From Paludisphaera rhizosphaerae (lineage in GTDB: Bacteria; Planctomycetota; Planctomycetia; Isosphaerales; Isosphaeraceae), in the NCBI RefSeq assembly GCF_011065895.1, contig NZ_JAALCR010000040.1:1-45050 (forward strand): 45,050 nt of DNA, written 5' to 3'. The notes under the pieces are model-generated. The model ran no database searches. It saw only the letters and a list, made by a program, of their open reading frames with translations, and was not told the origin of the DNA. Below, in pieces: positions 28,989 through 38,976 of this stretch. Numbering within the stretch: position 1 is the stretch's first letter; every line of letters starts with the position of its first letter. Position numbers and translations under genes: made by a program.

Positions 28989-29266
28989 GATCGCTCCTTG
29001 AACAGGCGGGGTTAAGCAGGGTGGGCGTTGGCTCGATGCATGCCTCCAGCTAAACCCTAGGTCGCGATCACGGTAATGCGGATTGTGTGGACGGAATTTT
29101 TAAGAAAATCCTCCCTAAGGCTTCCTAATTCGGCCCCCGAGGTCCTATGAGACGGTGGATAGGCTTACTTGAGGCCGAGCCACGGATTGGCCCCGACGCT
29201 CCGTCTCCCCCGGGAGTTTGGATGCGACCAGGCCTTCGATGTGATGAGGGAGCCCGGCCGGGGCTC

Positions 29267-32200
29267 TCAGGGCGCGCGATAGGGCTTGCCGGCGCGGTAC
29301 AGGTCGAGCCGCGAGCGGTAGTCGGCGAGGGTCGCCTCGTCGGGCTTGTCCAGGAGTTCGACGGCCTTCTCCTGCCACTTGACGGCGGCGGCGAAGTCGC
29401 CGGTTTCGGCGTGGGCGGCGGCGAGGGTGTCCAGGAAGACCGGCCACTTCCAGTCGTTCAGCTCGCAGGCTCGCAAGGCGGATTCCAGGGCTCGTTTGCC
29501 GTCGCGGACCTTGTCGTCGGGGGTCGTCGCCAGGAGCCGGGCGCGGTCGTCGTGGGCGTCGGGAGCCTGCGGGTCGAGGCGGATCGCCTCGTCGTAGTCG
29601 GCCAGGGCGCCGGCGAGGTCGCCCGCGGTCTTTCGGGCCAGGCCGCGGTTCCTGTGGGCGAGGACGTCGCTCGGGTCGATGCGGATCGCCTCGTCGTAGT
29701 CGGCCAGCGCCTGGTCGTTCTGCCGCTTGCACCATCGGGCGAAGGCCCGGCCGTGGAAGGCTGGGGCGTACCTTGGGTCGATGCGGATCGCCTCGTCGAG
29801 GTCGGCGATCGCCTTATCGTATTCGCCTTTCAGGTTCCAGATTTCGGCGCGGTTGACAAGGGTGACGGCGTCCTGGGGGGCGATTCGGATCGCCTCATCA
29901 TAGTCGGCCAGAGCCTTGTCATACTCGCCCTTGACCTTCCAGACGATGCCCCTGTTGCCGAGCGCGGCGGCGTCGAGAGGGTTGAGGCGGAGGGCCTCGT
30001 CGTAGTCGGCGAGCGCCTTGTCGTGCTCGGCCTTGTTGTGCCAGGCGACGCCGCGGTCGCGGATGGCGGAGGCGTTCTTGGGGTCGCGTCGGACGGCCTC
30101 GTCGAGGTCGGCGAGGGCCCGGTCGAGGTCCCCCTTCCGGCCCCAGGCGCGGCCCCGGGCCGCATAGCTCGAGGCGTCGTTGGGGTCGAGTCGGATGGCC
30201 TCGGTGTACTCGGCGACGGCCCGGTCGTGGTCCTTCTTCTGGTCGAAGGCTTCGCCGCGGAGCTGGTGGTTGAAGGGATCCTGGGGGTCGATTCGGACGG
30301 CCTCGTCGAGGTCGGCCAGCGACTTGTCGTAGTCCTGCTTCCTGCCCCAGCAGACGGCGCGGTTCTGGTAGGCAACGGCGTCGTCTTCCTCCAGCTTGAT
30401 CAGCGCGGTGTAGTCGGCGATCGCCTTATCGTATTCCCCCTTGTTCTGCCAGGCGATCCCGCGGTCGCAGAGGGCGCCGAGGTTTTGCGGATGGAGGCGG
30501 ATGACCTCGGTGAAATCGGCGACGGCCCGGTCGTAGTCCTTCTTCTCGTTCCAGGCGGAGGCGCGGTTCTCGTAGGCCGTGATGTACTTGGGGTCGAGAC
30601 GGATCGCCTCGTCGAAGGCGGCGATCGCCTTATCGTACTCGTGCTTGTTCGCCCAGGCCTTCCCGATCATGAGGTGGGCTTGGGCGTCGTTCGGCTGAAG
30701 GCGGACGACCTGGGTGTAATCGGCGATAGCCTTATCGTATTCCTTGCGTTCCACATGAATCCAGCCGCGGTTCTCGTGGGCGTCGGCGTTGTCGGGGTCG
30801 AGTCGAATGGCCTCGGAGTAGTCGGCGATCGCCTCGTCGTCTTCGTTCCTGCGACTCCGGATGTTGCCTCGATCGTAGTAGGCCCCGGCGTCGTTCGGGT
30901 CGAGTCGGATGGCCTCGTCGTAGTCGGCGACGGCCCCGTCGAGGTCGTCCTTCTGCTCCCGGGCGAGGCCGCGATTGTGGTAGCTGGCGGCGTCGTTCGG
31001 GTCGAGTCGGACGGCCTCGTCGAGGTCGGCGATCGCCGCGTCGTATTCGCCTTTCTCGCCCCGGACGGCGCCGCGAGCCTGGTAAGCCAGGCTGTATCGG
31101 GGGTCGAGTCGGATGGCTTCGGTGAAGTCGGCGAGGGCCTTGTCGTATTGCTTCTTGAGGCGCCAGGCGTGGCCGCGGTTGAGGATGACCCGGGCGTTGT
31201 TGGGGGCGATGCGGAGAGCCTTGTCGAAGTCGTCGAGGGCCCTGTCGTATTCCTTGTTCGTGAGCCGGCAACTGCCGCGCGCGATGAGGACCTGGACGTC
31301 GTTGGGGTCGATGCGGAGGGCCTCGGAATAGTCGGCGATCGCGGCGGCGGAGTCCCCCCTCTTGCTGCGGATCATGCCCCGGATTCGGTAGGCCTGGACG
31401 TCGTTGGGGTCGATGCGGATGGCCTCGCCAAGGTCGGCCGTCGCCTTATCGTGCTCTTGTTTGTTCGCCCAGGCCATGCCGCGCGCGGCGTAGGCGTCGA
31501 CATTCCCGGGGTCGAGCCGGATGACTTCGTTGAAATCGGCGATCGCCGCGTCGTTCTCGCCTCGTTCGACCCGGATGTGACCGCGTGCCTGATGGGCGTC
31601 GAGAAAACCCGGGTCGATCCGGATCGCCTCGTCGTAGTCGGCGACGGCTTCCTCGTACTTCCGTTGAGACGCCCTGTTGACGCCTCGGCTGTAGAAGGCC
31701 CGGGCGTTCCGTGGGTCGATCCGGATCGCGGAGTTGAAGTCGGCGAGGGCCTTGTCGTACTCGTGCATTTTGCTCAGGTCAGCGCCGCGATAGATGTAAA
31801 CGTCGACGTCGTTCGGGTCGAGGCGGATCGATTCGGAGTAGTCGGCGATGGCCTTGTCGTATTTCCCCTGATCGCTCTCGACCGTGCCGCGGGCCCGATA
31901 GGCCAGGGCGTACTGCGGATTGAGGTGGACGGCCGCGTCGAAGTCGGCGAAGGCCTTGTCGTCCTCGCCCTTCCGCTGCCAGGAGACTCCCCGATTGTAG
32001 AGAGCGACGGCGTTCTTGGGGGCGATCCGGACGGCCTCGTCGTAGTCGACGATCGCCCTGTCCTCGTCCTGCGATTCGCTCCTGGCGATCCCGCGGTTGA
32101 TGTAGGCGCCGGCGTTCTTCGGGTCGATGCGGATCACCTCGGAGTAGTCGGCGATGGCCTTCTCGTATTCTTGTCGCGAATCCCAGATGCGGCCGCGATT

Positions 32201-32755
32201 ACCAAGGGCGTCGGCGTCGTTCGGGTTGAGGCGGATGACCTCAGAGTAGTCGGCGACGGCCTTGTCGTACTCGCCCTTCTCACCCCAGGCGACGGCGCGG
32301 TTGAAGTAGGCGTCGGCGTCCTTCGTGCCCAGCCGGATGGCCTCGGTGAGGTCGGCGATCGCCTCGTCGTACTGCTTGAGGTCCAGGCGGAGGCTGGCTC
32401 GTTTGAGGTAGTTCTCGGGGCGGGCGGGGTCGGCCTGGATGAGGGCGGAGGCGTCCTCGACGGCCTGCTCCAGGGTCTTGATGTCCTTGAGGTCGATCCA
32501 GCCCTCGGCCGCGGCTCTCTCGGCGACGACCCGGGCGCGCGGGCCTTCGACTTTCTCGACCTTGTAGATCCGGCGGTCCTTGGGGTCGAGCTGCTCGTCG
32601 GGCTTGCCGTCGACGTGGAGCGTCGCGCCTTCCAGGGCGATCACGCGGCGGCCGATCAGAGCGGCGGCCGGGCCGGGCCCCGGCTGCTGGGCGAGGGTCG
32701 GACGAAGGCCGGCGATGAGCAGCGAAAGCGCCAGAAAGAGGCGGCGGTCGAGCAT
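29267..32755 (-). CDS. Exported tetratricopeptide-repeat protein, 29 TPR units
   Basis: The protein has 1162 residues. A signal peptide covers about 1-22 (LFLALSLLIAGLRPTLAQ). Residues about 30-92 form a small domain ending in GWIDLKDIKTLEQA. From residue 95 to 1080 there are 29 TPR units of exactly 34 residues with no insertion or deletion, typified by YDKAIADYDEAIRLDPNDA-x-AYxNRG. The remaining 82 residues are degenerate TPR. TPR superhelices bind peptides or scaffold complexes; the export signal places this one in the periplasm or outside. GAGG precedes the ATG. A very long open frame on the opposite strand (29147-34990) is an artefact of the repeat codon pattern. The partner is unknown. 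Confidence 0.92.
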   Translation of the reverse strand: MLDRRLFLALSLLIAGLRPTLAQQPGPGPAAALIGRRVIALEGATLHVDGKPDEQLDPKDRRIYKVEKVEGPRARVVAERAAAEGWIDLKDIKTLEQAVEDASALIQADPARPENYLKRASLRLDLKQYDEAIADLTEAIRLGTKDADAYFNRAVAWGEKGEYDKAVADYSEVIRLNPNDADALGNRGRIWDSRQEYEKAIADYSEVIRIDPKNAGAYINRGIARSESQDEDRAIVDYDEAVRIAPKNAVALYNRGVSWQRKGEDDKAFADFDAAVHLNPQYALAYRARGTVESDQGKYDKAIADYSESIRLDPNDVDVYIYRGADLSKMHEYDKALADFNSAIRIDPRNARAFYSRGVNRASQRKYEEAVADYDEAIRIDPGFLDAHQARGHIRVERGENDAAIADFNEVIRLDPGNVDAYAARGMAWANKQEHDKATADLGEAIRIDPNDVQAYRIRGMIRSKRGDSAAAIADYSEALRIDPNDVQVLIARGSCRLTNKEYDRALDDFDKALRIAPNNARVILNRGHAWRLKKQYDKALADFTEAIRLDPRYSLAYQARGAVRGEKGEYDAAIADLDEAVRLDPNDAASYHNRGLAREQKDDLDGAVADYDEAIRLDPNDAGAYYDRGNIRSRRNEDDEAIADYSEAIRLDPDNADAHENRGWIHVERKEYDKAIADYTQVVRLQPNDAQAHLMIGKAWANKHEYDKAIAAFDEAIRLDPKYITAYENRASAWNEKKDYDRAVADFTEVIRLHPQNLGALCDRGIAWQNKGEYDKAIADYTALIKLEEDDAVAYQNRAVCWGRKQDYDKSLADLDEAVRIDPQDPFNHQLRGEAFDQKKDHDRAVAEYTEAIRLDPNDASSYAARGRAWGRKGDLDRALADLDEAVRRDPKNASAIRDRGVAWHNKAEHDKALADYDEALRLNPLDAAALGNRGIVWKVKGEYDKALADYDEAIRIAPQDAVTLVNRAEIWNLKGEYDKAIADLDEAIRIDPRYAPAFHGRAFARWCKRQNDQALADYDEAIRIDPSDVLAHRNRGLARKTAGDLAGALADYDEAIRLDPQAPDAHDDRARLLATTPDDKVRDGKRALESALRACELNDWKWPVFLDTLAAAHAETGDFAAAVKWQEKAVELLDKPDEATLADYRSRLDLYRAGKPYRAP
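29516..32473 (-). repeat. 102-bp tandem coding repeat (29 TPR units)
   Basis: Each unit is 102 bases and encodes one 34-residue TPR. Units are diverged at the third codon position and in several residues, so the array is old rather than a recent slippage expansion. The DNA periodicity is obvious in recurring GGATCGCCTCGTCGTAGTC-like segments as read on the plus strand. Confidence 0.9.
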
Positions 32756-32877
32756 GGTCGGCGTCCTCGAAGCGGGGGTGGGGAGCCCGGGGGGCGCGGT
32801 CGAGCGGCGTCGATCCTAGCATGGAGTTGTGCGAGGGTCGATGATAAAGCCGTCAGGATGAGAGATGTGAATGCGCT

Positions 32878-32974
32878 GGGTGCCATGGCCACGCTGGCGT
32901 GGCCATGTGATCGGCGACGGTCGCGCTGCCGTCCCACGCCGGTCCATGGCCACGCCAGCGTGGCCATGGCACCC
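32878..32974. repeat. 97-bp interspersed palindrome, copy C
   Basis: It starts GGGTGCCATGGCCACGC and ends GCGTGGCCATGGCACCC, the same arms as copy A (4181-4277), with spacer TGATCGGCGACGGTCGCGCTGCCG. It sits upstream of the TPR gene's start (32755) and downstream of the dockerin gene's stop (33185), so it is non-coding. The large outer arms seen at 4103-4342 are not clearly conserved here. Confidence 0.9.
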
Positions 32975-33033
32975 AGGGCCCGCTTCATTCCGGTGGTGTT
33001 GAGCGAGGAATGTCGAGATGGGGATGTGCAAAG

Positions 33034-33146
33034 GCCCCTCGCGGGCGGGGGCGGCCGGGGCGGTCGGGCGAGGTGTGGTTTGCGCGACGGCTTCCGGCCT
33101 CGCGCTCCTCGTCGACGTTCCTGGACGCCCCCTCCCGCGGAGGGGC
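33034..33146. repeat. Imperfect inverted repeat downstream of the dockerin gene
   Basis: GCCCCTCGCGGGCGGGGGCG (33034-33053) pairs imperfectly with 33126-33146. The right arm also holds its own perfect 7-bp stem, CCCCTCC-CGC-GGAGGGG. Read on the minus strand it follows the stop at 33185 by about 40 bases, so it may act as a terminator for that gene. Confidence 0.5.
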
Positions 33147-33184
33147 TTGTGTGGCGGTCGGCCCGATTCGGGGCTGGGCTTGGG

Positions 33185-34738
33185 TCAGGCCAGGGCGACG
33201 GGTGTCAGCGTGACGGCGATGCTCTGGAAGTAGATCGCGGTCAGCCCTTCGTAGCCGGAATCGGTCCCGACGATCAGCCAGAGGTTGCCCTGGGCGTCGG
33301 CCTGGACGGTGGCCGTGTGGGTGTGCTCGCGGGTCAGGGAGACGTAGGGGACGCTCGTCTGGTCGCCTTCCAGCTCCTGACCGTTGGCGATGTTCCCGAC
33401 CACCGAGGCGTCCCTCCCGCCGGTGGAGTTGTTCCCCTTGTCGATGTTCATGCGAAGCATGTCGCCGTCGACGACCGCTTCGGGCTCGATCGTCGACGCG
33501 CCGGCTTTCAGGACGACCGACTCGCCGGGCGCCCCGCCGATGCCGGCGGCGTTGCTGGGGGCGTTGGAGGCGAACTTGATGGTGAACTCCACGGAGTACG
33601 TCGCGCCCGCCACCACGCCGTCCGCCGCCGTCAGCTTGCGGGTCAGGAACATGAAGGCGTCGTCGGAGCGGTTGTGGGACTGGAGCAGGTAGCCCGTGCC
33701 GTCCGTATTCAGGTCGGCCGGCAGGTCGCGGATGCCGGAGTCCAGCTCGTAGGTGTCGTTGGGATTCGTGGGGATGTCGGCGAAGCCGGCGTCCCAGCCC
33801 TGGGCGCCCTGGGAGAAGTCGTACGATTCGGTCACGACCGAGGCCGTCGAGCCCCGGACGACCGAGACGCTCTTCATGACGACCTGGCCGTCCGGCGACG
33901 TGGCGCGGAGGTCGAAGGTGTTGACCCCCAGGGCCAGGTCGACGTCGAAGTGGAACGAGCCGTCCGCGCCGGCGGTGGTGGTCACGGCCGAAGTGCCCGC
34001 GCCCAGCTTGACGATCGACCCCGGCGCGGCCTTGCCGACCAGGCTGGTCTTGGAGACGTCCGCGTCGACCGTGTTGTCGCCGTTGGGGTCGTCCGCGGGG
34101 GCGACGCCGGCGGTCAGCTCGCGAGGGCGGTAGGAGGTCGAGGCCCCCAGGTTGCGGAAGGCCAGCCGCCAGTCGCGGAGCGTCGTCACGCCGTCGCCGT
34201 CGACGTCGGTCCCGGCGAGGACCGTGTCGGCCGGACCGTTCACGCCGATCGCCGATCGGATCGCCGCCAGGTCGGTGCGGTCGACCTTGAAGTCGCCGTT
34301 GACGTCGCCGGCCAGCGAGACGTTGACGTCGTAGCCGCCGGTCGTCCCGTTCTGGGCCGTCGGCTGGATCGTCAACGCGCCAGGTCCGACCGAGACGATG
34401 GTCGACGATCCCGTCCCCCCCGAGACGTCGTCGTGACTGGAGATCGTCTGCACGCCCCGAGGATTCGAGGAAGCCGTCTCGGCGGCCGCGGGGTCGAACG
34501 AGGCGTCGGTCGACTGCGTGTCGACCTTCAGCAGCACGCGATTCCCCGCGCCGGGGCGGAAGCCGAAACGGTCGACGACCAGCGTGTAAGAGTCGGCCGG
34601 CGCGAGCACCAGCCTCCCTTGATAGACGGCGAACTTCGACCCCCCCACGGTGGAGAGCAGGGTGCGATCTTCCAGCAGATCCAGGCAGGGGTTGCGGCCG
34701 ATCCGACGTCGCGGATCAACATGGGAGGAGAGTCTCAT
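33185..34738 (-). CDS. Exported protein with LEPR-XLL N-terminus, dockerin-like module and Ig-like domain
   Basis: The protein has 517 residues. The N-terminus is RRRIGRNPCLDLLEDRTLLSTVGG (motif at about 19-27). A type-I dockerin-like module lies at about 165-220, with two calcium loops (DVNGDFKVDRTD and DVDGDGVTTLRD) 40 residues apart. A Big/Ig-like domain follows at about 240-315 (SLVGKAAPGSIVKLGAG, GVNTFDLRATSPDGQ). The C-terminal 190 residues are beta-rich and jelly-roll-like (SYDFSQGAQGWDAGF, YSVEFTIKFAS) and resemble a carbohydrate-binding fold. The start at 34738 has GGAG upstream; an open frame to 34879 lacks one. Dockerins bind cohesins, but planctomycete ones usually occur without a cellulosome, and no cohesin gene is visible here. 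A surface or adhesion role is inferred. Confidence 0.82.
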   Translation of the reverse strand: MRLSSHVDPRRRIGRNPCLDLLEDRTLLSTVGGSKFAVYQGRLVLAPADSYTLVVDRFGFRPGAGNRVLLKVDTQSTDASFDPAAAETASSNPRGVQTISSHDDVSGGTGSSTIVSVGPGALTIQPTAQNGTTGGYDVNVSLAGDVNGDFKVDRTDLAAIRSAIGVNGPADTVLAGTDVDGDGVTTLRDWRLAFRNLGASTSYRPRELTAGVAPADDPNGDNTVDADVSKTSLVGKAAPGSIVKLGAGTSAVTTTAGADGSFHFDVDLALGVNTFDLRATSPDGQVVMKSVSVVRGSTASVVTESYDFSQGAQGWDAGFADIPTNPNDTYELDSGIRDLPADLNTDGTGYLLQSHNRSDDAFMFLTRKLTAADGVVAGATYSVEFTIKFASNAPSNAAGIGGAPGESVVLKAGASTIEPEAVVDGDMLRMNIDKGNNSTGGRDASVVGNIANGQELEGDQTSVPYVSLTREHTHTATVQADAQGNLWLIVGTDSGYEGLTAIYFQSIAVTLTPVALA

Positions 34739-35064
34739 GTTGTCGCTCCAATGGTGTGTCGCCGACGCCCCGAACCGCACGAGCCGGCTCGGCCGACGGC
34801 GGAAACGAAAGCGGCCGACGAAGATGATCGCGAAACCCGTTCCAACACCAGGATCGCAGTCAGCCCTCGTCGGCCACACGGGAGTCGAGATCCCATGCGA
34901 GCAGGCGACATGAATAAAGGTTCATGTTTCAGGCGGGAGCCGCCGCCGGTCTGGGCCGGTCGGTTGACGGGGGGAGAGGGCCGCCGGTAGGATCGGCGAG
35001 GGGGGGAGCCCCCGGGCGGCCGACGTCGGGTCGATTACAACTGGAAGAGATCGAAGTTCCTACC

Positions 35065-35826
35065 ATGCATATTCTTCTGACGAATGACGACGGCGTGTTC
35101 GCGCCGGGGCTGCGGGCGCTTCGCAAGGAGCTGCTGAAGCTCGGCGAGGTGACGGTGGCGGCGCCCGCCCTGGAGCAGAGCGGGGTCGCGCACACGATCA
35201 CCCTGCTCAATCCCCTGGTGGTCAAGCAGGTCGACGACGACGATGGCAAGACGCTGGGGTGGTCGATCGAGGGCTCGCCGGCCGACAGCGTCAAGCTGGC
35301 CATCTGCGAGCTCATGCGACGGCCGCCGGACCTGATCGTCTCGGGGATCAACAGCGGGGCCAACGCGGGGATCAACGTCCTCTATTCGGGGACGGTCGCC
35401 GCGGCCATCGAGGGGGCTTTCTTCAAGATCACGAGCATCGCCGTCTCGCTGGAGCTGTCCGAGCACTTCGATTTCCCCACCGCCGCCAAGCAGGCGCGCA
35501 AGGTCATCGAGAAGATCCTGGCGAACAAGCCGGCCAACGGCTCCCTGTTCAACGTGAACCTCCCCGCGCACGCTCGGGGAGAGGCCAAGGGCGTGCGGGT
35601 GGTTCCCATGGATCTGGGCCGCCACGGCGAAGGCTTTGAGCGCAGGCAGGATCCTCGCGGCCGGACCTACTACTGGATGACCTACACCCCGCCTCGCGAG
35701 ATCCCCGGTCCCGAGACCGACCTCACGGCCCTGGGCGACGGCTACATCACCGTCACCCCGCTCCACTTCGACATGACCCGCCACGAACGGCTTGAGGAAG
35801 TCGGCGGCTGGGACTGGAAGGACTGA
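35065..35826 (+). CDS. surE: 5'/3'-nucleotidase SurE
   Basis: The protein has 253 residues, the usual SurE length. MHILLTNDDGVFAPGLRALRKEL carries the metal-binding Asp pair and gives an unambiguous start. APALEQSGVAHTITL, WSIEGSPADSVKLAI and PDLIVSGINSGANAGINVLYSGTVAAAIEGAF are the remaining family motifs, including the conserved Asn. SurE dephosphorylates nucleoside 5'- and 3'-monophosphates with a divalent metal, in the cytosol or periplasm. It is often linked to stationary-phase survival and protein repair with pcm, which is not adjacent here. It converges with the first dioxygenase-like gene, whose duplication may have carried away part of the surE 3' end (see the repeat entry at 35829-37874). 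Confidence 0.97.
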   Translation: MHILLTNDDGVFAPGLRALRKELLKLGEVTVAAPALEQSGVAHTITLLNPLVVKQVDDDDGKTLGWSIEGSPADSVKLAICELMRRPPDLIVSGINSGANAGINVLYSGTVAAAIEGAFFKITSIAVSLELSEHFDFPTAAKQARKVIEKILANKPANGSLFNVNLPAHARGEAKGVRVVPMDLGRHGEGFERRQDPRGRTYYWMTYTPPREIPGPETDLTALGDGYITVTPLHFDMTRHERLEEVGGWDWKD

Positions 35827-35860: not shown

Positions 35861-36664
35861 TCAACGGCTGAATCGCCCCTGGAACGCCACGCGGAGCCGG
35901 TGCAGCCAGGGCGGGAGATTCGGGGCGCCCACCCCCAGGACCCAGGCCTTGCGGCAGAGGTCCGAGAGGTTGGGGCCGGCCCCGTACACCAGGCAGGGGT
36001 GGTGGAAGGTCGCGTCGCCGGCGCGGAGCGATGAGGTGTAGACGGTCGCCGGGTCGATGGCGGCGGAGGTCTCCATGCCGGAGTTCTCGTCGCCGCGGCG
36101 CCAGTGGTGGGGGAGCTTTGGCCCCAGATGCGAGCCGGGGACGAACCGGATGGCGCCGCCGGAGGCGTCGACGTCTTCGAGCGCCATCCAGAAGTAGCCG
36201 TAGGACTTGGGCTCGCGTTTGCCGGTCAGTCCGTAGACGGCGGCGTCCTGATGCCAGGGGGACTCGACTTCGGGAAGCCCCACCGGCATGTAGACGGCGA
36301 CGTCCCAGAGGATGGGCGCCGTCTTGCCGAGGAAGGACCGTGCAGCCCCCAGCGTGGCGGGTTCCAGAATGTGGCGCAACTCGGGGTCGAGCCGGAGGAT
36401 GTTGCGGATCGCCGGGATCCCCGGCCGCCCGGCGCGAGCGGATTCGGGGGCCAGGTCGTCGACGTGCCCCGGCGGCAGATCCTGAATCCGTTCATAGAGC
36501 CCGTCGATCGTCTGTCGGATCAACGTCGCGGTGGTCGTATCGACAAACCCCGCCACGAAGGCGAAGCCCTCGCGCTGGTACAGAGACTTCAAATCCCGTC
36601 CGACGGGTTCGGCAATCGGCCTCGTCCCCGCTTCGCCGGCCGGGCCGGTTTTCAATCCTGCCAT
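35861..36664 (-). CDS. Phytanoyl-CoA dioxygenase (PhyH)-like protein, copy 1, distal iron ligand lost
   Basis: The protein has 267 residues. The 2-oxoglutarate/Fe(II) oxygenase fold of the PhyH family is recognisable: YQREGFAFVAGFVD opening, SPWHQDAAVY (H138-x-D140), FVPGSHLGPKLPHHW, and LRAGDATFHHPCLVYGAGPNLSDLCRKAW. In PhyH enzymes the distal His sits 11 residues before the 2-oxoglutarate Arg. Here that position is Tyr (Y227) while R238 is kept. Copy 2 has H227. The two copies are 232/267 identical. Loss of one facial-triad ligand suggests an inactive or altered protein, although the frame is intact. It converges with surE. The substrate is unknown. Confidence 0.9.
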   Translation of the reverse strand: MAGLKTGPAGEAGTRPIAEPVGRDLKSLYQREGFAFVAGFVDTTTATLIRQTIDGLYERIQDLPPGHVDDLAPESARAGRPGIPAIRNILRLDPELRHILEPATLGAARSFLGKTAPILWDVAVYMPVGLPEVESPWHQDAAVYGLTGKREPKSYGYFWMALEDVDASGGAIRFVPGSHLGPKLPHHWRRGDENSGMETSAAIDPATVYTSSLRAGDATFHHPCLVYGAGPNLSDLCRKAWVLGVGAPNLPPWLHRLRVAFQGRFSR

Positions 36665-36897
36665 GTTCGCTCCTCGTCATGACGACGGGGTTCGCCCGTA
36701 TCCAAGGGCGCCTCCTATCCTGAGCCTAGTTCAGGAATGTGAGGCGGGCGTTCTCGGGCGAGGATTCGAGGCCGATCGGGTCGCGAGGCCCCGAGTTGGA
36801 TATTGAACGGCCCGGGTCGCCATCCGTGACGACGGCGGGCGACGGCGACATCACCGTCGCCCCGACGAGGACGACGCCCGGGCCTTCCCGGCGCTCG

Positions 36898-37701
36898 TCA
36901 TCGGCCGAACCGTTGCTTGAACGCCACGCGGAGCCGGTGCAGCCAGGGCGGGAGATTCGGGGCGCCCACGCCCAGGACCCAGGCCTTGCGGCAGCGGTCG
37001 GAGAGGTTGGGGCCGGCCCCGTGGAGCAGCCAGGGGTGGTGGAAGGTCGCGTCGCCGGCGCGGAGGGAGGCGGTGTAGACGGTCGCCGGATCGATGGCGG
37101 CGGAGGTCTCCATGCCGGAGTTCTCGTCGCCGCGGCGCCAGTGGTGGGGGAGCTTCGGCCCCAGGTGCGAGCCGGGGACGAACCGGATGGCGCCGCCGGA
37201 GGCGTCGACGTCTTCGAGCGCCATCCAGAAGTAGCCGTAGGACTTGGGCTCGCGTTTTCCGGTCAGTCCGTAGACGGCGGCGTCCTGGTGCCAGGGGGAC
37301 TCGACCTCGGGGTGCCCGGCCGGCATGTAGACGGCGGCGTCCCAGAGGATGGGCGCCGTCTTGCCGAGGAAGGACCGTGCAGCCCCCAGCGCGGCGGGTT
37401 CCAGAATGCGACGCAACTCGGGGTCGAGCCGGAGAATGTTGCGGATCGCCGGGATTCCCGGCCGTCCGGCGCGGACGGACTCAGGGTCCAGGTTGTAGAC
37501 GTGACCTGGCGGCAAGTCATGGATCTGCTCGTAAAACCCGTCGATCGTCTGCCGGATCCTCGTCGCGGTGGTCGTATCGACGAGCCCCGCCACAACGGCG
37601 AAGCCCTCGCGCTGATACAGGGCTCCCAGATCTCGCCTGGCGGGATCCGTGTTTAGTTTCGTCCGTGCTTCACCGGCCGAGCCGGTTCTCAATCCTGCCA
37701 T
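36898..37701 (-). CDS. Phytanoyl-CoA dioxygenase (PhyH)-like protein, copy 2, intact iron site
   Basis: The protein has 267 residues and aligns without gaps to copy 1 (35861-36664). The iron triad is complete: H138-x-D140 in SPWHQD and H227 in WLLHGAGPN, with R238 (in SDRCRKAW) at +11 as the 2-oxoglutarate anchor. It should be a working non-haem Fe(II) hydroxylase, probably on a lipid or small-molecule substrate that cannot be named from sequence. Residues 131-210 are identical to copy 1, while the ends differ at 35 positions, a pattern suggesting gene conversion or strong local constraint. GGAGCGAACATGG-type sequence before the ATG is shared with copy 1, so both are probably expressed the same way. 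Confidence 0.92.
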   Translation of the reverse strand: MAGLRTGSAGEARTKLNTDPARRDLGALYQREGFAVVAGLVDTTTATRIRQTIDGFYEQIHDLPPGHVYNLDPESVRAGRPGIPAIRNILRLDPELRRILEPAALGAARSFLGKTAPILWDAAVYMPAGHPEVESPWHQDAAVYGLTGKREPKSYGYFWMALEDVDASGGAIRFVPGSHLGPKLPHHWRRGDENSGMETSAAIDPATVYTASLRAGDATFHHPWLLHGAGPNLSDRCRKAWVLGVGAPNLPPWLHRLRVAFKQRFGR

Positions 37702-38157
37702 GTTCGCTCCTCATCATGACGACCGGGGTCGCCTCTTCCCGTGGGCGCCTCCTTTCTTGAGCCTAGTTCAGGAACGCGAGACTGGTGATCCCGGGCGAGG
37801 ATTCGAGGCCGATCGGGTCGCGAGTCCCCAGGGCGGACGGACAAGACGGGCACCGTCGCCATCCGTGACGGCGACGATCGAAGGTTGCTCGTGTGAAGAT
37901 TCAAGGCTGAGTCGCGTCGCCGCGAAGCGCCGTCGTGAAGCGATCGAGAGACGTCGCCGTCGTGTTGCGCCAACACTCATGGAGGCGGCCTTGTACGCCG
38001 CCGGGGTCGGCGGAATGATGCGTGGGTCGGGAGGGACCTCGGAGGCGATCGACGAAGATCGGGTGGGGCGAGGCAGGTGAAGAGGCCTCTTCTCAGCCAC
38101 GACAGGCCGAGCCGAGAACTTGTGTTTTTTCAAAACTCAATGAAGATGGAGGCTCTG

Positions 38158-38976
38158 ATGAAGAAGCTCGTTTACCTGGCGGCTCTGTTTGGGATGGGCT
38201 TGGCGACGACCGCGGTTCAGGCCGATCCGATCCTCTGGATCTGCGACAACAACGGCGACATCGGCCGGGTGGACGTCGCCACCGGCAACGTGCTGAACGT
38301 CTACAGCGCGGGCGTGACGCTGACCGACATCGCGTTCGATTCCGCGGGCAACCTGTACGGGATCAGCTTCACCAACTTCTACTCGATCAATACGTCGGGC
38401 CCGAACATCGGCCATGCCAACCTGGTCGGCTCGCTCAACCCTCCCGGCCCCGGCGACGGCGGCAACGGCGGGATGAACTCCCTGGTCTTCTCCAGCACGG
38501 GCGTGGCCTACGCGATGAGCAACGCCACTAACGACCTCTACACGATCAACACGAGCACGGGCGCCGCCACGGCGCTGTCCGGGGGCGTCGGCGCCTACCG
38601 TTCGTCGGGCGACCTGGCGTTCCACAACGGCAGCCTCTACCTGACGACCACGTCGAACGACCTGATCCGGGTGAACATGGGGCCGGTCTCGGCGACGCTC
38701 GTCGGCGCCCTCGGGGTGTCGAACGCCTTCGGCCTTGCCAACGGCGACAACAACGTCCTGTACGGCGTGGCCGGCACGAACATCTACACGGTCAACACCT
38801 TGACCGGGGCGGCGACGTTCCTGAGGAGCTATGCCAACGCCCAGGGCCTTGGCTCGGCCAACGGTGCGGCCTTCTATCTGGAGGCGACGCCCGTCCCCGA
38901 GCCCAGCAGCGTGGTGATGATGCTCGCCGGCGGCCTCGGCCTGGCGGCCGTCGCCCGGCGGCGCCGCGCGGTCTGA
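38158..38976 (+). CDS. Exported PEP-CTERM propeller-like protein
   Basis: The protein has 272 residues. A signal peptide (MKKLVYLAALFGMGLATTAVQA, cleavage near 22) is followed by a body of short repeated strands: ILWICDNNGDIGRVDVATGNVLNVY, TDIAFDSAGNLYGISFTNFYSIN, LYTINTSTGAATALSG and IYTVNTLTGAATFL, which suggests a propeller. The C-terminus PVPEPSSVVMMLAGGLGLAAVARRRRAV is a textbook PEP-CTERM sorting signal (VPEP, hydrophobic helix, Arg tail) for exosortase processing. The start at 38158 has GGAGG seven bases upstream; the open frame extends upstream to 38077 without support. A strong hairpin terminator follows at 39009-39047. The binding target is unknown. Confidence 0.88.
   Translation: MKKLVYLAALFGMGLATTAVQADPILWICDNNGDIGRVDVATGNVLNVYSAGVTLTDIAFDSAGNLYGISFTNFYSINTSGPNIGHANLVGSLNPPGPGDGGNGGMNSLVFSSTGVAYAMSNATNDLYTINTSTGAATALSGGVGAYRSSGDLAFHNGSLYLTTTSNDLIRVNMGPVSATLVGALGVSNAFGLANGDNNVLYGVAGTNIYTVNTLTGAATFLRSYANAQGLGSANGAAFYLEATPVPEPSSVVMMLAGGLGLAAVARRRRAV

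Follow-up and report, generated by a model that had tools for sequence, protein, structure and literature searches.

A tandem pair of PhyH-family genes in Paludisphaera rhizosphaerae with tyrosine in place of the distal iron-ligand histidine in one copy

A Tandem PhyH Gene Pair Next to surE

The window analyzed here, the whole stretch of 45,050 bases, is one entire contig of the 8.05-Mb draft genome (110 contigs) of Paludisphaera rhizosphaerae. Two neighboring genes on its minus strand each encode a protein of 267 amino acids belonging to the PhyH family (PF05721), and they lie beside a gene at 35065..35826 which we take to be surE. The genome contains four PF05721 matches at E ≤0.001, namely the pair and two on contig C4. 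The features of the locus are:

35065..35826, plus strand: surE-like gene, convergent with copy 1 and 89–93% identical in five congeners
35861..36664, minus strand: copy 1, PhyH-family protein of 267 amino acids with Tyr replacing the distal iron ligand H227, and also with C224, L236, and L130 (alignment, profile match, domain survey)
35984..35995, minus strand: codons 224–227 of copy 1 (C-L-V-Y; W-L-L-H in copy 2), with four base differences (pair alignment)
35984–35986, minus strand: the Tyr codon of copy 1, codon 227 (pair alignment)
36665..36845, minus strand: region 5′ to copy 1, sharing 79% identity with the corresponding region of copy 2 and including an identical 33-nt block (36755–36787) and an AGGAGCG stretch (flank alignment)
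36837..36864, plus strand: remnant (28 nt) from the 3′ end of surE, located between the copies and 93% identical to 35733–35760 (sequence comparison)
36898..37701, minus strand: copy 2, PhyH-family protein of 267 amino acids with the complete H138/D140/H227 triad and R238 (alignment, profile match, domain survey)
37702..37884, minus strand: region 5′ to copy 2, homologous to its counterpart upstream of copy 1, with the identical block at 37792–37824 (flank alignment)

The alignment of the two copies contains no gaps and shows differences at 84 out of 804 nucleotides and 35 out of 267 residues (87% identity). The open reading frames and the alignment agree with the original prediction of tandem 267-residue PhyH-like duplicates, and its statement that the reading frame and upstream region of copy 1 are intact was confirmed for the start, the frame, and the upstream blocks. 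An assembly or sequencing error at the Tyr codon or at the junction between the copies is conceivable in a draft of 110 contigs in which the window is an entire contig. However, the 84 differences are spread along the gene, the 5′ flanks and the junction are distinct, and the site itself carries four separate base differences, which makes such an error very improbable indeed.

The homologous unit spans from just past the surE stop codon, through the gene, to ∼180 bp upstream of the start codon. One base past the 28-nt surE fragment between the copies, the sequence resembles that found beyond the surE stop codon, and the 67 intervening bases are missing from the fragment. We read this remnant as marking the duplication junction, and the pair as the product of a tandem duplication that started inside surE. 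In one congener the surE 3′ end is repeated (94 bp, 85% identity) ∼470 bp past the surE stop codon, beyond a different insert. Duplications of the surE 3′ end are thus found next to inserted sequence in two species, and the surE 3′ end may be a recombination hot spot.

Both copies carry the AGGAGCG stretch directly before the start codon. The 33-base block, which is identical in the two flanks although these otherwise share 79% identity, is possibly a regulatory site. A genome-wide repeat was considered for this block and rejected: with up to three mismatches it occurs only at the two places beside the pair.

Upstream of surE in the window, a minus-strand gene (33185–34879) encodes a 564-amino-acid protein that matches dockerin type I, and this gene is found beside surE in three out of five congeners (57–66% identity). 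A second minus-strand gene (29267–32755) encodes a 1162-amino-acid protein with many TPR repeats (19 TPR_1 stretches), and the plus-strand open reading frame of 1947 amino acids that runs across it (29147–34990) is probably only its opposite strand. On the other side, divergent from the PhyH pair, a plus-strand gene (38077–38976) encodes a PEP-CTERM protein with a DUF4394 match; none of the 10.5-kb stretches surrounding surE in the congeners matches this gene.

Family Membership and Predicted Fold

Both copies match the full PF05721 model (79.6 bits for copy 1 and 91.8 bits for copy 2, cut-off 22), with the score of copy 1 ∼12 bits below that of copy 2. At E ≤0.001, PhyH was the only Pfam family found in either copy, and no JmjC domain was detected. 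Ectoine hydroxylase (TIGR02408) was tried as a more specific assignment and rejected (14.4 bits for copy 2 against a cut-off of 336.5, no match for copy 1). AlphaFold models based on 73-sequence alignments reached pLDDT values of 84.3 and 85.5 and have a common order of strands and helices, with a strand predicted at residues 227–229 in both copies. The fold and strand register of copy 1 are therefore predicted to match those of copy 2.

The closest solved fold to the copy 1 model is EvdO2 (VIA-align Z 25.6 over 217 residues, 2.7 Å), followed by AviO1, GriE, a proline hydroxylase, and SnoK, among further structures, so that the best PDB matches of copy 1 are PhyH-like oxygenases; human PHYH aligns with Z 21.4 over 220 residues at 3.3 Å. 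The sequence of copy 2 matches EvdO2 with E 5e-18. EvdO2, AviO1, SnoN, SnoK, and human PHYH (PDB 4xac/4xab, 4xaa, 5ep9, 5epa, and 2a1x) resemble copy 1 in fold and copy 2 in sequence, and they share with the pair the positions of the HxD motif and of the 2-oxoglutarate (2OG) arginine. Unlike these proteins, copy 1 is without the distal histidine. A scan of nine neighboring proteins in the window found no biosynthetic enzyme family.

The sequence match, the double-stranded beta-helix fold (predicted by the models), the HxD ligands, and R238 are common to both copies. The distal histidine iron ligand of the PhyH family is present in copy 2 (H227) and absent from copy 1 (Y227). Judged from these features, copy 1 is a PhyH protein by descent and not by the distal-histidine feature of the active site.

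Loss of the Distal Iron Ligand in Copy 1

Copy 2 contains the full 2OG oxygenase site (H138, D140, H227, and R238), and copy 1 retains H138, D140, and R238 with Y227 in place of H227, accompanied by C224 and L236. The residues named in the original prediction were all correct by alignment. R238 stands 11 residues after the distal ligand, a position which we take to be that of the 2OG-binding arginine. The H227Y replacement corresponds to a single base change (CAC to TAC, a transition), and W224C, L226V, and H227Y are grouped at one strand of copy 1. A special event behind the cluster of four base differences within 8 nt at codons 224–227 was considered and rejected, as over the 3′ half of the gene such clustering does not reach significance (P 0.16) and falls to P 0.046 only on leaving out the last seven codons, a post hoc choice.

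Another histidine in the ligand position would have offered copy 1 a replacement for H227. The only histidine present in copy 1 and absent from copy 2 is H98, located in a predicted helix; H221 and H222, just before the site, are common to both copies, and the predicted strand 227–229 is unchanged. A substitute histidine, the outcome that the original prediction had named as refuting it, was accordingly rejected at the sequence level.

To place the tyrosine among other PhyH proteins, domains from 289 loci were aligned, giving 275 unique domains. The loci came from a search of 392 genomes of the phylum with copy 2 (30 loci plus 13 additional stretches), from the best-scoring PF05721 matches listed in 246 genomes of the phylum (30 loci plus 45 additional stretches), from all PF05721 places listed in 45 genomes of the same bacterial family, from searches with copy 1 (27 loci), and from 80 relatives in named genomes of several phyla. 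Outside the bacterial family the lists were ordered best-first, so that divergent, low-scoring PhyH members are under-sampled there. The distal position could be aligned in 267 out of 275 domains (eight rows unaligned) and holds His in 266 and Tyr only in copy 1; a smaller, earlier survey gave 166 out of 167. At the 2OG-arginine position, Arg is found in 265 and Lys in two out of 267 domains, and all 245 domains with aligned HxD positions (30 of the 275 rows unaligned) carry the proximal His and Asp. Tyr at the distal position of copy 1 is the single case among the surveyed domains, and because His occupies this position in 266 out of 267, the ligand loss is not a matter of chance. A literature search covering titles and abstract openings found no PhyH protein with a lost distal histidine.

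Distribution of the Pair among Related Genomes

The surE gene is present in all five congeners (one genome per species, 89–93% identity), and no match to either PhyH gene was found in any of the five. The 10.5-kb stretches around surE in these congeners contain no match to the pair, and the similarity of the congeners to the window stops within ∼20 bases of the surE stop codon. No close relative above 43% identity was found in the genomes searched. Among 45 genomes of the bacterial family, a search with copy 1 identified remote matches in eight other genomes (29–34% identity). The best matches in 392 genomes of the phylum reached 34% over 215 residues and 43% over 114 residues, and those in 397 genomes of the class, a set that overlaps the phylum set, reached 26–37%. 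In contigs of named genomes the identity was at most 35% among the best 80 of 383 relatives, and a scan of these contigs with copy 1 alone gave no confirmed match. Some members of the phylum have large numbers of candidate PhyH genes, with 237 first-look candidates in one genome as compared with the four PF05721 matches of P. rhizosphaerae.

Composition gives no clear signal of foreign origin (GC3 of 0.87 in both copies and 0.90–0.95 in five neighboring genes). A mobile or plasmid origin was considered and rejected: in a tblastn search with copy 2, 31 out of 72,556 plasmid records matched, all at <60% identity (25–36% among the 20 matches listed), and a single scan of viral contigs gave no confirmed match.

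Divergence and Selection

The method of Nei and Gojobori type (NG86) was adopted for the pair and gives dN 0.067 and dS 0.26, that is, a dN/dS of 0.26 (bootstrap 0.17–0.38); YN00 gives 0.056/0.58. If the two copies have equal synonymous branches and copy 1 had evolved neutrally throughout, a pair ratio of at least 0.5 would be expected. As the observed ratio is 0.26, copy 1 was probably under constraint earlier, and probably so for much of its history as a duplicate. Taken alone, the unbroken frame of copy 1 is weak evidence, because no stop codon had arisen in 32% of the neutral branches simulated with 42 substitutions. The earlier description of copy 1 as not an obvious pseudogene is therefore moderately supported by the pair ratio and only weakly by the frame.

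Divergence is uneven along the gene. The dS of the pair as a whole is lower than that of surE between P. rhizosphaerae and the five congeners (0.43–0.63), and it is 0.39 in the first 130 codons and 0.57 in the first 60 codons. These segment values are near or within the surE range, so that the duplication may be either younger or older than the species split. Synonymous differences affect 19 out of 103 codons in the first part (codons 1–130) and 11 out of 129 in the second (codons 131–267; p 0.03, for a split chosen after looking at the data), and residues 131–205 show no amino acid difference alongside six base differences. The lower number of synonymous differences in the 3′ half hints at homogenization with copy 2 and at recent changes in this half.

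The 35 differing sites were polarized by scoring them against 154 distant homologs (≤32% identical) with a threshold of ≥1.5 bits. Within the Pfam domain (residues 29–240), copy 1 is the less family-like copy at 12 sites and copy 2 at four (binomial p 0.077). The numbers are eight and zero in residues 104–240 (p 0.008, for a region chosen after looking) and 18 and nine in the whole protein. On this modest evidence, the core of copy 1 seems to be the derived one. For copy 1 the pair ratio does not fit neutrality throughout, yet replacements at conserved positions of the domain fall mostly on it.

A plain pseudogene in the making would account for the pattern if the low dN/dS is left over from the time before H227Y or from homogenization. 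A single transition is enough to produce H227Y, the changes in the 3′ half can be recent given its fewer synonymous differences, and stop-free neutral branches make up 32% of those in the simulation. However, copy 1 has no indel or stop codon, and its start and upstream blocks are intact, so that we regard this reading as quite unlikely. It overlaps with the explanation preferred below, from which it differs only in the extent of relaxation.

Comparison with Known Iron-Site Variants

The distal ligand corresponds to His-264 in the protein described in PMC2871039. SyrB2-type Fe/2OG halogenases, which PMC2767507 and PMC2871039 place structurally near EctD and PhyH, resemble copy 1 in that one iron ligand is missing. 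In these halogenases, however, the carboxylate is absent and a halide takes its place, whereas copy 1 keeps D140 and has changed the distal histidine. A halogenase-like site in copy 1 was rejected on this ground, and the comparison with halogenases made in the original prediction falls with it, the carboxylate being kept and a histidine lost instead.

Tyrosine is able to ligate iron. Copy 1 might then be an active enzyme with altered chemistry, its iron or other metal bound by H138, D140, and Y227, possibly together with C224, and supporting a different oxidation. The triad departs from the usual one only at the distal ligand, and W224C, L226V, and H227Y come together at the distal-ligand strand. 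Against this, the only histidine gained is the helical H98, the retained carboxylate leaves no open place for a halide, other conserved positions of the domain have changed as well, and prolyl 4-hydroxylase lost its activity when the triad was rearranged (PMC2767507). This reading is considered improbable. With one His and one Asp retained and Tyr at the third position, iron affinity and O2 activation in copy 1 should be sharply lower.

JmjC proteins belong to the same 2OG oxygenase superfamily as PhyH. Two of them, PHF2 and Schizosaccharomyces pombe Epe1, carry the same Tyr-for-His replacement in the iron triad as copy 1 (PMC11790891). PHF2 was reported to be inactive in vitro until phosphorylated by PKA (PMC4687429). 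For Epe1, no demethylase activity has been detected in vitro (PMC11790891, PMC7192584), function in vivo is lost when the tyrosine is changed to alanine (Y370A), and a non-enzymatic role is argued for (PMC7192584). Both differ from copy 1 in being JmjC proteins of eukaryotic chromatin, and the tyrosine of Epe1 is one that has been tested functionally. By analogy, PHF2 and Epe1 make it possible to conceive of copy 1 as a pseudoenzyme that has been kept.

Copy 1 could be a retained pseudoenzyme that binds 2OG, substrate, or copy 2 and thereby tunes or scaffolds the active copy, much as Epe1, and possibly PHF2, have a role in which no catalysis is detected. The pair dN/dS well under 0.5, the intact frame and upstream region, and the conservation of R238, H138, and D140 are consistent with retention, as are the shared change in PHF2 and Epe1 (PMC11790891) and the effect of Y370A (PMC7192584), which suggests that a tyrosine at this position can matter. 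On the other hand, no further species carrying the pair turned up in the genomes searched, so that maintenance of Y227 is hypothetical, the domain replacements lean toward copy 1, an interaction between the copies is equally hypothetical, and the precedents are eukaryotic chromatin proteins. We regard retention as a serious but clearly less probable alternative. The narrower proposal that copy 1 is a bacterial counterpart of PHF2 and Epe1, kept by selection to sense 2OG or substrate and to regulate or partner its active twin, is doubtful; if true, copy 1 would stand alone in this respect among the 267 surveyed PhyH domains. Where the original prediction spoke of a catalytically dead regulator or partner subunit, dead is the best reading, and a role as regulator or partner would be speculative.

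Evolution of the Gene Pair

The explanation we prefer, with a probability that we put at about even, is that copy 1 is a folded but catalytically crippled duplicate that was constrained earlier and is now under relaxed selection. In this scenario, a gene for a PhyH-family Fe(II)/2OG oxygenase would originally have adjoined surE in P. rhizosphaerae, and one tandem duplication, which began within the surE 3′ end and took in the oxygenase gene with ∼180 bp of its upstream sequence, would have produced two copies with their own upstream regions. Copy 2 would have remained a canonical 2OG oxygenase. Copy 1 would have stayed under purifying selection for much of the period that followed, with its 3′ half perhaps partly homogenized with copy 2, and would later have gained replacements in the double-stranded beta-helix core, including H227Y. 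The protein would still fold and might bind 2OG and substrate weakly through the retained R238, while binding iron poorly and performing no turnover. The loss of catalysis, the order of events, and the weak cofactor binding are inferred. Copy 1 does not appear to be simply decaying, because its frame, start, and upstream blocks are intact and residues 131–205 are free of residue changes.

The pair represents a natural before-and-after case for a 2OG oxygenase in which the distal histidine has become tyrosine, and it raises the same question as PHF2 and Epe1. If copy 1 is merely decaying, the locus would be an instance of ordinary gene birth and death; if copy 1 is kept, it would be an unusual bacterial pseudo-oxygenase.
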